From: Candidatus Poribacteria bacterium
GTDB lineage: Bacteria; Poribacteria; WGA-4E; PCPOR2b
Reading direction: 5' to 3'
Assembly (NCBI GenBank): GCA_022822785.1
Contig: JAJEAL010000111.1
Span: 1-64,000, forward strand
DNA: 64,000 bases
Shown piece after piece: positions 25,689 to 31,261 of this stretch. Below the pieces are notes generated by a model. It did not search any database. It was not told where the DNA came from and worked only from the letters and a program-made list of their open reading frames with translations. How positions within the stretch are numbered: the first letter of the stretch is position 1; the number at the start of each line of letters is the position of its first letter. The position numbers and the translations under genes were made by a program.

Positions 25689-28205
25689 TTATTTGAGAAT
25701 TACCATACGTCGTAAGTCGGTATAATCATCTGCACGAAGTTGATAAAAATAAACCCCGCTTGCGACCGTTTCGCCGATTGCGTTGCGACCATCCCAATAG
25801 ACAGCTTTTGACCGGACGGTGTAGTATCCCGCAGGTTGATACCCCAGATCGAATTGGCGCACCGGGTTACCTTTTATATCATAAACTGTAACCGTCACGT
25901 CGGCATCACCGGCAAGTTGGTACGGAATCCACGTCTCCGGGTTGAACGGATTGGGATAGTTAGCCAAAAGTGCCGTCTCTTTCGGAACTATTACTGTAAG
26001 TAGCCGTTCCAAGAAAAGAATTCCTCTCTGCGTCCTTACGTCTGTAAGATCTAACCTTTCTGCTTCGGCAAGCCAACCCTTGACATCGGCGGGGCTCAGG
26101 TCGGTCAGTGCCCAGGGATGTCCAGCAGGGGCGGCGGCAGTATTCCCTATCGCACCGGCGACCTGAACGAGGTCAGTAATGTCCACAACACCATCCCCGT
26201 TGACATCGGCATCGTTTTCCCCGGTTTGGCCCAAACGTAATCCCACCAAAACTACATCCAAGATGTCAACCACCCCATTCCCATTGACATCCTCAACCGG
26301 CGGAACCGCCTTGACAACAGAAGGCGGCGGTGGGAGTGTAACATCCCATAGAAGCACCGTGCCATCCCAACTCCCACTCGCAAGGGTCTTTCCATCAGCA
26401 CTGAAAGCAACACTCTCAACGCTCGTTGCATGACCGATGAGGGTCTTTAACGATTCACCGGTAGCAGTGTCCCACAAGCCAACCGTATCATTCCACATAC
26501 CAGCTGCCAGAATCTTGCCATCAGGACTAAAAGCGAGGGTCTCGCAACCGTGCGAATCCCTTTCGATAGCCATCACTTCCTCACCGGTGGCGACATCCCA
26601 TAGGCGGATGACACTGTCCCAGCCTGCGCTCGCAACCGTTGTGCCATCGGGACTGAAGGCAACCGTAAGCACATGCCCCCTATGGCCCTCAAGGACATGT
26701 AAGGTTTCGCCGGTGGCGACATCCCACAGACGAACGGTGCGGTCCCGACTTCCACTTGCGAAAATTTTTCCATCGAGGCTGAACGCAATGCTCTCAACCC
26801 CGGTGGTATGCCCACTGAAGGTTCTCAAACGCGTCCCGGTCGCCACGTCCCACAACCGGATGTCATCGTCCTCGCTTCCACTCGCCACCATGCTCCCATC
26901 GGGACTGAAAGCAACGCTTATGATATACGAGGTATGCCCGACGAGGGTTTTCAAGTGTGCCCCCGTATCTACAGCCCACAAGCGGACCGTATCGTCCTGA
27001 CTGCCACTAGCAAGCGTGCGTCCATCGGGGCTAAACGCAACGATGTCCACATCATCCGTATGCCCGAACAGGACATGCTCGCGCTCGCCTGTTTCAGTGT
27101 TCCACAGTCGGATAGTACTGTCCCAACTCCGACCGATAAGGACACGACCCTCCGGACTGAACGCAACGTTCAATACGAGATCCGTGAACCCAGTAACGGT
27201 GTTGATGTGCTCACCGGTATCAACGTCCCACAGACGGAAAGACGCATCCCACGCCCCACTGGCAATCGTGCGGCCATCGGGGCTAAACGCAACCTGAATG
27301 ACATCAGCCGTATGATCGGCCAAGATGTGAACCGTTTCACCAGTCTTGACATCCCACAGGCGGACAGTATCGTCCTCGCTTGCACTCACTAGGATGCCCT
27401 CAGTCGAAAAACCGAGATCATAGATAAGGGAGGTGTGCCCGGTGAGGATATTGACAAGCTCACCCGTATCCGCATTCCATAAACGGATTCTCGCGTCGTA
27501 ATCTCCACTGGCAATTAGACTTCCATCCGGACTGAAAGCGACTGCCCGGACAAGAGACGTATGCCCGATAAAGGTTCTCATGTTTTCGCCCGTGCTGACA
27601 TCCCACAGACGAACCGTTTGATCCCAACTTCCACTAGCGACCATATCCCCATCTGGACTAAAAGCAACGCTAGTGACCCGATCCGTATGTCCGCTCAGCG
27701 TATGAATGACCTCACCTGCCTCAACATCCCACAGACGAACAGTTCGGTCGTAACTCCCACTAGCGAGGGTCTGTCCATCGGGGCCGAAAGAAAGGCTTCG
27801 TATACCACTCCTATGTCCAGTAAGGGTTTTGATGTCCTCACCGGTGGCAGTATCCCACAGACGGATAGTTCGATCCCAACCCCCACTAGCAAGGATATTT
27901 CCAACTGGAGAATACGCCATAGAAGACGGTGAGTAGGTCGCATTAGAATATATCGCGGTCTGTCCGGTCAGCAGATCAACCTCTTGAAGGGTTTCTGTAT
28001 CGTAAAGCCAGATACCGATGGCGGTGGCGACTGCAAGGCGGCTGCCGTCAGGCGAATACTGAAGTCCAGCTATCCACCCTTTACCAAATCGGGCAATCGC
28101 ATCATCGGGCAATCGCCATTGCGGATTGTCTTGAGTGAAGCCATCTGATAGAAATAGAGTAGAGAGTACTAATAAAATAAGGCTAAAAAACACTGTCCTT
28201 TTCAT
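25689..28205 (-). CDS. Secreted WD40-repeat protein with dockerin-like pair and sorting tail
   Basis: 838 residues. A signal peptide (MKRTVFFSLILLVLSTLFLSDGFTQ) is followed by ~14 WD40 blades (about 30-630), each with VAFSPDG, ASGS and RLWDV motifs, enough for two propellers. Then comes a dockerin-I-like pair of calcium loops (DVNGNGVVDILD, DVNGDGVVDITD, ~645-695). A helical spacer precedes a ~85-residue C-terminal beta domain (NPFNPETWIPYQL to RRMVILK) of the FlgD-like/sorting-tail type. AAGGAG precedes the ATG. It is a close tandem paralogue of 28304-30811. Extracellular binding is likely; the target is unknown. Confidence 0.88.
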   Translation of the reverse strand: MKRTVFFSLILLVLSTLFLSDGFTQDNPQWRLPDDAIARFGKGWIAGLQYSPDGSRLAVATAIGIWLYDTETLQEVDLLTGQTAIYSNATYSPSSMAYSPVGNILASGGWDRTIRLWDTATGEDIKTLTGHRSGIRSLSFGPDGQTLASGSYDRTVRLWDVEAGEVIHTLSGHTDRVTSVAFSPDGDMVASGSWDQTVRLWDVSTGENMRTFIGHTSLVRAVAFSPDGSLIASGDYDARIRLWNADTGELVNILTGHTSLIYDLGFSTEGILVSASEDDTVRLWDVKTGETVHILADHTADVIQVAFSPDGRTIASGAWDASFRLWDVDTGEHINTVTGFTDLVLNVAFSPEGRVLIGRSWDSTIRLWNTETGEREHVLFGHTDDVDIVAFSPDGRTLASGSQDDTVRLWAVDTGAHLKTLVGHTSYIISVAFSPDGSMVASGSEDDDIRLWDVATGTRLRTFSGHTTGVESIAFSLDGKIFASGSRDRTVRLWDVATGETLHVLEGHRGHVLTVAFSPDGTTVASAGWDSVIRLWDVATGEEVMAIERDSHGCETLAFSPDGKILAAGMWNDTVGLWDTATGESLKTLIGHATSVESVAFSADGKTLASGSWDGTVLLWDVTLPPPPSVVKAVPPVEDVNGNGVVDILDVVLVGLRLGQTGENDADVNGDGVVDITDLVQVAGAIGNTAAAPAGHPWALTDLSPADVKGWLAEAERLDLTDVRTQRGILFLERLLTVIVPKETALLANYPNPFNPETWIPYQLAGDADVTVTVYDIKGNPVRQFDLGYQPAGYYTVRSKAVYWDGRNAIGETVASGVYFYQLRADDYTDLRRMVILK

Positions 28206-28303: not shown

Positions 28304-30811
28304 TTATTTGAGAATTACCATGCGCCGTAAGTCAGTATAATCGCCTGCACGAAGTTGATAGAAATAGACGCCACTTGCTACTGATTCGCCGGTTTCGTTA
28401 CGTCCGTCCCAATATGTTGCTTTCGTCCTACTCGTATAGAATCCTGCGGACTGATAGCCCAAATCAAACTGACGTACCGGCATACCTTTTGTGTCATAAA
28501 TTGTGAGGCTGACATCGGCGTCGTTGGCGAGTTGATACGGGACCCATGTCTCCGGATTGAAGGGGTTGGGGAAGTTAGGCAAGAGTGCTGTCGCTTTCGG
28601 AGCCAGGGTTGCAAGCAGTTGTTCAAGGAAAAGGAGCCCTTTTTGTGAACGGACATCCGTGAGATTTAATGCCTGCGCTTGGGTAAGCCAACCCTCAATA
28701 TCGGCGGAGGTCAGGTTTGCTAGAACTATCGGATGCACCGAAGGGGCAGCAAACGTACCGTTTATTGCACCGGCAACCTGAATCAGGTCCGCAATATCGA
28801 CAACACCATCCCCGTTGACATCAGCATCATTTTCCCCGATCTGTCCTAGACGCAAGCCGACTAACACTAAATCCAAGATGTTGACCTCCCCATTTCCGTT
28901 GACATCCTCAACGAGTGGAGGCGGTGGTTCTTCGAGTTCTGGCGGCGGTTGTGGAATATCCCACAGTAGCACCGTCCCGTCTTGGCTTCCACTGGCGAGG
29001 ACCGTACCATCGGCGTTAAAAGCTATGCTCTCAACCCTAGAGGAATGTCCGGTAAAGGTCTCGATATGCTCTCCTGTTTCAACATCCCACAAGCCAATCG
29101 CATTACCCCACCCGCCGGCTGCGAGCGTCTGTCCATCTCGACTGAAAGCAACGCTCTCTATCGCACTTTCGACGCCGTAGTCGCTCGCGTGGAGGGTCAT
29201 TACTTCATCACCAGTGACGGGATCCCACAAACGAAGGGTATTGTCCCACCCCCCACTTGCGAGGAGTGTGCCCTCCGGATTGAAAGCAACGGTCAACACA
29301 TGCCCGCTATGACCGAAGAACCCTTGCAAGATATCGCCGGTCTCAACATCCCACAAACCTATCGCGGAGTCTCGACTCCCACTTGCGAAAGCGCTGCCAT
29401 CGGGACTGAAAGCAATACTCTCGACACCGGCACCGTGCCCGTAGAAGGTGTCCAGACGTTCCCCCGTGACAACATCCCACAAACGGATTGTGTCGTCCTC
29501 GCTTCCACTCGCGAGGACTGTACCATCCGGACTAAATGCGATGGTGATAATATATGCCCAGTGCGCGACGAGCGTTTTCAGGTGCGCGCCAGTCTCAGCG
29601 TCCCACAGACGAACGGTATTATCCTGACTGCCACTGGCAATCGTGCGCCCATCCGGACTAAAAACAACGATGTCCACATCGTCTGTATGCCCTACGAGAA
29701 CGTGCTGCCGCTCTCCTGTTTCGGTATTCCAGACATGAATCGTTTGATCCCAACTCCGACCAACGAGGGTGCGGTCACCCGGACCGAAAGCAACGCTAGT
29801 GGCCCGATCGGCATGTCCAGTAAGGGTGCCGATGTTCTCTCCGGTGTCAACACCCCATAGGCGAACGGTTGCATCCCCACTCCCACTTGCGAGGGTGTTA
29901 CCCTCCGGGCTAAACGCAACCCTGTAGACATCAGCCGTGTGTTCAATAAAGGTTTTGACTGTTTCACCCGTGACCGCGTTCCATAAGCGAATAGTATCGT
30001 CCTCACTTGCGCTTGCCAAGATGCCCCCATCCGAAGAAAAAACGACTTCGTAGATACTTGAAGTATGCCCGGTGAGAGTTCTGATTTTCTCGCCTGTCTT
30101 AACATTCCACAAATGAATCGCCGAGTCATAGTCGCCACTCGCGAGGGTGCCTCCCCAACCAAAAGCAACCGTTTGGATCAGAGAGGTATGCCCGATGAGC
30201 GTTTGGGTGTTCTCGCCGGTGTCAACATCCCACACGCGAACGGTCTGATCCCAACTTCCACTGGCAACCATATTCCCGTCTCGGCTAAAAGCAACGCTAG
30301 AGACCCAATCCTCATGGCCGATAAGCGTTTGGGTGTTCTCGCCGGTGTTAACATCCCACAGGCGCACGGTGTCATCGTAACCCCCGCTAACAAGGGTTTT
30401 TCCGTCCGGACTGAGGGCAATGCTCAAGATACCCGCCTCATGCCCGGTAAGGGTGCTGATGCTCTCACCCGTTGCAGTATCCCATAACCGAATGGTATCG
30501 TCGTAACTTCCACTGGCAAGTATACTCCCATCCGAAGAATAAGCGATGGTAGAGACTATTTCCGTATGCCCGGTGAACAGATCAACCGCTTCGAGGGTTG
30601 CCGCATCGTAGAGCCAAATACCGATAGCGCTGCCCACCGCGAGCCGTGTGCCATCAGGCGAATATTCAAGCCCAGATATCCACCCTTTGCCAAATCGCGC
30701 AGTAGCACCATCGGGCAGCTGCCACTGCGGGTTCTCTTGCGCGACGCTATTTGATAGAAATAGTGCGAAGACTAATAATAGGATAATAGTAAACCAGGTT
30801 GTCTTTTCCAT
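28304..30811 (-). CDS. Secreted WD40-repeat protein with dockerin-like pair and sorting tail (paralogue)
   Basis: About 835 residues from the ATG at 30811, chosen because GGAG lies at a workable distance and a signal peptide (MEKTTWFTIILLLVFALFLS, then NSVAQ) starts exactly there; an ATG 36 bases upstream is in frame. The architecture equals the 25689-28205 gene: WD40 blades, acidic Pro-rich hinge (PPPELEEPPPPLVED), two dockerin-like calcium loops and the NPFNPETWVPYQL sorting tail. The 98-bp gap and the shared 5' sequence (GAGAATCAATxTCAATG) show a tandem duplication. Confidence 0.88.
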   Translation of the reverse strand: MEKTTWFTIILLLVFALFLSNSVAQENPQWQLPDGATARFGKGWISGLEYSPDGTRLAVGSAIGIWLYDAATLEAVDLFTGHTEIVSTIAYSSDGSILASGSYDDTIRLWDTATGESISTLTGHEAGILSIALSPDGKTLVSGGYDDTVRLWDVNTGENTQTLIGHEDWVSSVAFSRDGNMVASGSWDQTVRVWDVDTGENTQTLIGHTSLIQTVAFGWGGTLASGDYDSAIHLWNVKTGEKIRTLTGHTSSIYEVVFSSDGGILASASEDDTIRLWNAVTGETVKTFIEHTADVYRVAFSPEGNTLASGSGDATVRLWGVDTGENIGTLTGHADRATSVAFGPGDRTLVGRSWDQTIHVWNTETGERQHVLVGHTDDVDIVVFSPDGRTIASGSQDNTVRLWDAETGAHLKTLVAHWAYIITIAFSPDGTVLASGSEDDTIRLWDVVTGERLDTFYGHGAGVESIAFSPDGSAFASGSRDSAIGLWDVETGDILQGFFGHSGHVLTVAFNPEGTLLASGGWDNTLRLWDPVTGDEVMTLHASDYGVESAIESVAFSRDGQTLAAGGWGNAIGLWDVETGEHIETFTGHSSRVESIAFNADGTVLASGSQDGTVLLWDIPQPPPELEEPPPPLVEDVNGNGEVNILDLVLVGLRLGQIGENDADVNGDGVVDIADLIQVAGAINGTFAAPSVHPIVLANLTSADIEGWLTQAQALNLTDVRSQKGLLFLEQLLATLAPKATALLPNFPNPFNPETWVPYQLANDADVSLTIYDTKGMPVRQFDLGYQSAGFYTSRTKATYWDGRNETGESVASGVYFYQLRAGDYTDLRRMVILK

Positions 30812-30969
30812 TGAGATTGATTCTCCATTTTGAGTTGTCGATTCCAAGATATATTATTCTTAGCGCGCGGGACAGAGGTGAGCGCAGCGACATCCCGTTC
30901 CAGCCTACCCGACCTATCGGAGGCTATCAGGGAAAATCGCTGCCCACTTCCTGCTCGGTTTGTTGATAC

Positions 30970-31215
30970 TTATCGATTAAGCTGCTGCATCGCAGCGATC
31001 ATATCATCGTCTGATGGATTGCTTTTCACCATCTCAACAAACTCATCAGCATCTAGCTTGTGTTCCTCCAGGAACTTTTTGTCCTGCGGTCACGGGTAGA
31101 TGTACTCACCGATAGTACCGTCCAACTTGGCACGCGCCTTATCCGTAACCCGCGCCAACCACCAGTACCCGCCAATGAGCATATCCCGATGACGGGGTTT
31201 CCAATCGAGTCCCAT
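30970..31215 (-). CDS. DUF5069-like protein with in-frame UGA (candidate selenoprotein)
   Basis: 82 codons with a very strong AGGAGGTGA site 5 bases before the ATG at 31215. Translation gives MGLDWKPRHRDMLIGGYWWL, ARVTDKARAKLDGTIGEYIYP, then UGA (31092-31090), then PQDKKFLEEHKLDADEF to a TAA at 30970. Both halves match the DUF5069 pattern (GG-WLAR--DKARA, GEY-Y-CPLD--FL--LGID---F) as I recall it, and the UGA falls on the Cys of CPLD. A 5-bp hairpin GTTCC-TGGA-GGAAC lies 19 nt after the UGA with G in its loop, the spacing expected for a bacterial SECIS. So codon 42 may be selenocysteine. The alternatives are a nonsense mutation or a sequencing error. Confidence 0.6.
31062..31092 (-). promoter_or_regulatory. 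Possible bacterial SECIS element
   Basis: On the minus strand the UGA at 31092-31090 is followed 19 nt later by the loop (31070-31067) of a stem GTTCC (31075-31071)/GGAAC (31066-31062). This fits the general bSECIS pattern of a short stem with a G-containing apical loop 16-37 nt after UGA. A competing stem (CAGGA/TCCTG, 31085-31070) overlaps it. Short stems arise by chance, so this is suggestive only. Confidence 0.35.
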
Positions 31216-31261
31216 GTAATTCACCTCCTTTTTGGTTCATTATTGCCCCAGAACTTTAAAA

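Follow-up and report, generated by a model that had tools for sequence, protein, structure and literature searches.

The insertion of selenocysteine (Sec) into bacterial proteins by way of SelB is established knowledge, and Sec at the start of a helix is typical of selenoproteins of the Trx, Grx, Prx and DsbA types, that is, of the thioredoxin fold. Closest to the present case are the DUF3179, DUF166, DUF1573, DUF1858 and DUF523 selenoproteins, in which comparative genomics placed Sec where homologues have Cys (PMC13188914), and the DUF5069 structure 3omd from Leptospirillum rubarum, which carries Cys in the motif YNCPLD. The present locus is a small DUF5069 gene with an in-frame UGA codon in the DNA of Candidatus Poribacteria bacterium (assembly GCA_022822785.1, contig JAJEAL010000111.1, positions 1 to 64,000 of the forward strand); this whole stretch of 64,000 nucleotides (nt) is called the window below. 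It is almost certainly an intact selenoprotein gene with Sec predicted at residue 42, and this reading is based on the continuity of the frame, the Sec/Cys column, the Sec insertion sequence (SECIS) and the Sec machinery. The features of the gene are as follows, in window coordinates:

30970..31215, minus strand: predicted DUF5069 selenoprotein gene of 81 codons, with ATG at 31215..31213 and TAA at 30972..30970; matches PF16798
31090..31092, minus strand: in-frame UGA, codon 42, predicted to be read as Sec; TGA in 72 Poribacteria, 36 Latescibacterota and 4 Chloroflexota genomes, TGC or TGT in the other homologues read
31223..31230, minus strand: ribosome binding site AAGGAGGT, recognised from sequence, 7 nt ahead of the ATG
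31062..31075, minus strand: putative SECIS hairpin GUUCC-UGGA-GGAAC, loop 31070..31067; core TTCCTGGAGGAA fixed in UGA genes, with covariation

Compared with these systems, the window protein is the same domain as 3omd by sequence, and its Sec aligns with the Cys of YNCPLD; the difference is that Sec, with a SECIS, stands in place of Cys and that the PF16798 match spans only profile positions 4–75 of 133, that is, a short form of the family and not the full-length domain. With the DUF3179, DUF166, DUF1573, DUF1858 and DUF523 selenoproteins it shares the kind of evidence and the placing of Sec where homologues have Cys, whereas families and motifs differ. As in the thioredoxin-fold selenoproteins, Sec stands at a helix start in the model; unlike them, the window protein is predicted to be mostly helical, gives no Trx match in the fold search of the PDB and has neither UxxC nor CxxU.

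DUF5069 is absent from a 2026 catalogue of 119 prokaryotic selenoprotein families and subfamilies (PMC13188914), and it is not among the nine new families of the 2025 deep-Sep paper (PMC12013277). In the literature searched, outside which most subscription papers lay, there was no mention of DUF5069 or PF16798, nor of selenoproteins together with Poribacteria. DUF5069 is filed here as a new selenoprotein family, of which an earlier description is possible.

Reading Frame and Recurrence of the UGA Codon

With TGA written as U, the translation of the gene is MGLDWKPRHRDMLIGGYWWLARVTDKARAKLDGTIGEYIYPUPQDKKFLEEHKLDADEFVEMVKSNPSDDDMIAAMQQLNR*. An earlier note on this DNA had described a textbook ribosome site and a UGA at codon 42 of a DUF5069-like gene, and both descriptions hold: the ribosome site is strong, the frame is continuous across the UGA, and with UGA read as Cys the Pfam match to DUF5069 reaches 60.2 bits against a gathering cut-off of 27. 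The note had also placed the gene correctly but gave no strand, the gene being in fact on the minus strand. NCBIfam has no model for the window protein; its closest named relatives are metagenome-assembled genomes (MAGs) of Candidatus Poribacteria, with identity up to 96%. Downstream of the UGA, the ratio of nonsynonymous to synonymous substitution rates (dN/dS) is low, 0.02–0.41 where it is estimable. Public annotation has probably shortened the gene or missed it, because standard gene callers would end it at codon 42.

Of 98 whole genomes searched, 72 have the gene with a single internal TGA; they include the window's own genome and span several families, and six genomes of one family (f5) of the same class have it without a stop. 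In the loci read from this search TGA always falls at the same codon, which is TGC or TGT in all six f5 genes, so that UGA and Cys forms of the codon, for which the note had suggested looking, both occur in the lineage. A scan of the contigs of named genomes gave 60 poribacterial TGA loci and 20 TGC/TGT loci (15 from Latescibacterota, Chloroflexota, Bacillota and others, and 5 from Poribacteria); no third residue occurred there. The two sets overlap, and both come from public MAGs. Beyond Poribacteria, one TGA is present in 36 of the 43 Latescibacterota genomes having the gene and in 4 of 38 in one class of Chloroflexota, at the same codon in all four read, while their kin have Cys. Relatives with another sense codon or a frameshift here, which the note had named as evidence to the contrary, did not appear, and only TGA, TGC and TGT were read. 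Its statement that UGA stands where the family has Cys is true of every sense homologue read (all 20 in the named-contig scan) but not of DUF5069 at large: further DUF5069 proteins encoded by this genome show GDDSG or CNPAATD at that place, that is, Cys is not universal in the domain.

If a Cys codon had turned into TGA and the gene were dead, or if the base had been misread, the TGA of one genome alone would look just like this. However, the same TGA recurs across several families (72 genomes) and in two further phyla, the frame is intact with low dN/dS past the TGA, and the SECIS described below is invariant; a base-call error is implausible because the same UGA recurs in separate assemblies. 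On this recurrence the explanation by pseudogene or sequencing error was rejected, and its probability is practically negligible.

Hairpin Downstream of the UGA Codon

The window hairpin has a stem of 5 base pairs and the loop UGGA with G at its second position; it starts 14 nt past the UGA, and its loop lies 19 nt past it. The earlier note had given a hairpin 19 nt after the UGA with G in the loop; the G is there, and 19 nt is the distance to the loop, but the stem already begins at 14 nt. The published geometry of the bacterial SECIS is 16–37 nt from UGA to loop with G within the first two loop positions (PMC13188914), which the window hairpin fits.

The 12-mer TTCCTGGAGGAA, which covers codons 48–51 (FLEE), is invariant in all 63 distinct poribacterial UGA genes and present in none of the 21 Cys homologues. 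Its start lies 15 nt past the UGA in 62 of these 63 genes, which puts their loop at 19 nt, and 18 nt past it in the one with an inserted codon. Among the 62 poribacterial UGA genes tabulated, codons 48–51 are the sole run of four without synonymous change, while the codons of F59, E37 and L31 are used freely. In Latescibacterota, TTCCTGGAGGAA occurs at the same spacing in 30 of the 33 UGA genes read; two of the remaining three have GGGA for GGAA, which keeps the pairing, and one has a widened loop.

The codons flanking the core covary, being CAC/GTG, AAG/CTT and CGC/GCG in Latescibacterota versus ATG/CAT and GTG/CAC in Poribacteria. With relatedness uncorrected, the fifth pair is formed in 78 of 78 distinct sequences (G-C 67, C-G 10, A-T 1; shuffled mean 59.7), the sixth in 69 (shuffled 38.6) and the seventh in 42 (shuffled 27.1), and none of 5000 shuffles reached the observed pairing at these three pairs. 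Conservation of the protein does not account for the pairing, since the residues encoded by the paired codons differ (Met/His, Lys/Leu, His/Val, Arg/Ala). The three Chloroflexota UGA genes whose sequence continues beyond the UGA carry another hairpin, its loop 21 nt from the UGA, namely GCUC-GGU-GAGC in two and a GAGU form in the third, where it was not the top pick of the scan. The claim of a SECIS is thus borne out by a hairpin that is conserved, covarying and confined to UGA genes. Rfam SECIS_1 gave zero matches, control genomes included, and is uninformative here; a permissive Rfam scan gave one match, which was judged to be chance.

Sec Machinery and Decoding of the UGA Codon

The genome contains a tRNA-Sec with anticodon UCA (74.6 bits) directly after selB, and model searches recovered selB (E 2e-109) and selD (E 9e-110). 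The open reading frame (ORF) of 477 amino acids (aa) preceding selB we take, from its sequence by eye, to be selA. The earlier note had asked for these genes and had held that a genome without Sec machinery would speak against its proposal; this genome has the machinery. SelD is itself a selenoprotein with an in-frame UGA, at the usual Sec site of that protein:

L071:2035-3096, minus strand: SelD with in-frame UGA in KTCGUAAKVSP and its own hairpin, loop 17 nt past the UGA

Among other genomes with the UGA gene, tRNA-Sec was found in 59 of the 67 Poribacteria tested (drafts, under stricter filters), 34 of 36 Latescibacterota and 3 of 4 Chloroflexota. It is also kept by five of the six Cys-form Poribacteria, so that loss of the machinery does not explain the Cys form.

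UGA is decoded as Trp or Gly in some lineages, and a suppressor or a changed genetic code might insert such an amino acid here instead of Sec. Yet UGA terminates 6 of the 26 long frames in the window (some of them possibly not genes), so that it is not a sense codon throughout; the homologue column is Cys, neither Trp nor Gly; the genome has the complete Sec machinery, and the hairpin goes with UGA genes. Genome-wide recoding was rejected on these grounds, and decoding as another amino acid is highly improbable.

Some points weigh against reading codon 42 as Sec. The evidence for Sec at this residue is comparative sequence; tRNA-Sec was not found in 8 of the 67 poribacterial UGA genomes tested, all drafts; and the hairpin of the window is weak. 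The criterion for a bacterial SECIS is a minimum free energy of at most -7.5 kcal/mol (PMC13188914). The 14-nt window hairpin alone gives -4.2, and the 43-nt region of the window gives -7.8 but folds into another structure, that is, these 43 nt alone favour a competing helix, and the energies are statistically unremarkable. In relatives whose stem is longer the hairpin does form, at -9.4 to -9.9. Since the UGA region of the window folded alone does not single out the hairpin, the case is carried by conservation and covariation. In the proposed mechanism, SelB with Sec-tRNA-Sec would bind the hairpin just 3′ of the UGA, and the ribosome would make a compact DUF5069 protein with Sec as residue 42.

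Structure, Gene Neighbours and Possible Function

The AlphaFold model of the window protein (predicted local distance difference test, pLDDT, 86) is mostly helical with four helices, and Sec stands just ahead of helix 43–51. The only convincing match in the PDB fold search was 3omd, with a TM-score of 0.82 over the query. In 51 homologues the invariant residues are P7, R8, G15, W19, R22, D25, K26, A29, G36, Y38, Y40, P41, residue 42, D45, L49, F59 and D69; Sec lies within the motif of Y38, Y40, P41 and D45, and the invariant R8, R22 and K26 lie elsewhere.

The most likely role, held with about even confidence, is that of an activated lone selenol in a small redox enzyme of the 1-Cys type, which would be reset by an external thiol. 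The note had suggested a catalytic or redox-active Cys, and this may hold. The window protein is without any Cys, which leaves Sec without an internal partner, and thiols or selenols placed at a helix start usually have a lowered pKa. Redox roles are assumed for most selenoproteins whose function is unknown (PMC13188914). Against a redox role stands the lack of a typical UxxC motif in the window protein.

Sec may instead be real without being the redox centre, acting as a metal ligand or a group-transfer nucleophile, perhaps together with an APH-like phosphotransferase. We consider this less likely than the 1-Cys-type redox enzyme, and only tentatively plausible. The absence of a second Cys or Sec and of a thioredoxin-like fold match would suit it, as would the neighbourhood: at 14 DUF5069 loci in Latescibacterota, Bacillota and Chloroflexota, some with UGA and some with Cys, the gene immediately upstream in the same orientation is an ORF that always belongs to one family. 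Within this family one member scores 26.2 bits with Pfam APH (cut-off 23.2), and another has no match at the usual threshold. These loci are:

L148, L152, L157-L159, L162, L251, L252, L261, same strand as DUF5069: upstream one-family ORF, Latescibacterota or kin
L147, L150, L151, L262, L263, same strand as DUF5069: upstream one-family ORF, Chloroflexota except L150 (Bacillota)

The general tendency of such selenoproteins towards redox roles speaks against a non-redox Sec, and the APH-like neighbour was not seen in the poribacterial loci compared. Gene neighbours differ by phylum, and many Poribacteria have UPF0182 upstream and then pheA and queG downstream of the gene. The pairing of the APH-like ORF with DUF5069, conserved across phyla, is the best functional lead.

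Origin of the Sec Form

In a tree of about 80 columns, which is weakly resolved, Poribacteria and Latescibacterota split from the rest with support 100/97. The Cys rows of both phyla fall inside this group, and the Chloroflexota Sec rows stand among Cys rows. Because the SECIS is identical in Poribacteria and Latescibacterota, the simplest reading, which is suggestive only, would be a single origin of Sec common to both with later reversions to Cys; because the hairpin differs, a second, independent origin in Chloroflexota is probable, again at the level of a suggestion. Transfer between phyla may also have produced this distribution of the Sec form. The DUF5069 gene of a contig titled Gemmatimonas phototrophica (L162) groups with Latescibacterota, and this record may be mislabelled or misbinned.

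Other Features and a Second Candidate

Downstream of the window gene, an apparent duplication of a WD40-repeat protein occupies the place of pheA and queG in many other Poribacteria. These proteins, and the poribacterial DUF5069 proteins that lack the Cys, which include tandem two- and three-unit forms, are located as follows:

25689-28205 and 28304-30847, minus strand: two tandem, closely similar WD40-repeat proteins of about 840 aa
L163:5335-6189, minus strand, and L165:5207-6490, minus strand: other poribacterial DUF5069 proteins; GDDSG or similar in place of the Cys
L164:5763-6200: other poribacterial DUF5069 protein; CNPAATD at the place of the Cys

A window-wide scan for further frames split by UGA gave 100 pairs, mostly noise. 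Beside selD, elsewhere in the genome, lies a second selenoprotein candidate, which is absent from the catalogue:

L071:3474-4586 (G000:C25:57473-58585), minus strand: MetE-like protein (Pfam Meth_synt_2) with in-frame UGA

Its UGA falls in HLURGN, for which distant relatives have HVCRGN with a Cys taken to be the zinc-site Cys; it is found in seven genomes, and about 19 nt past it the sequence allows a hairpin whose loop is GGU. The passages found in a methyltransferase-cluster paper that mentions selenocysteine (PMC10418091) do not describe this candidate.

Significance

The predicted gene adds a selenoprotein family in an uncharacterised domain that is widespread in uncultured phyla, the UGA arrangement being shared by more than 100 uncultured bacteria of three phyla. 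In a sponge metagenome, SelA and SelB co-occur in most symbiont bins and are missing from most related reference genomes (PMC5649159); the DUF5069 selenoprotein would be a concrete user of machinery of this kind. It is about an even call that DUF5069 represents a novel catalytic domain, mostly helical and distinct from the thioredoxin fold, that works with a single selenol; in this reading Sec had at least two origins (Poribacteria/Latescibacterota and Chloroflexota) and Cys replaced it in genomes that keep tRNA-Sec, so that the chemistry would specifically reward selenium in some lineages. Residue 42 is indicated as a functional centre of DUF5069, whose function thereby becomes testable, and the switches between Sec and Cys inside one clade, together with a SECIS core found only with Sec, make the family a clean case for the gain and loss of selenocysteine.
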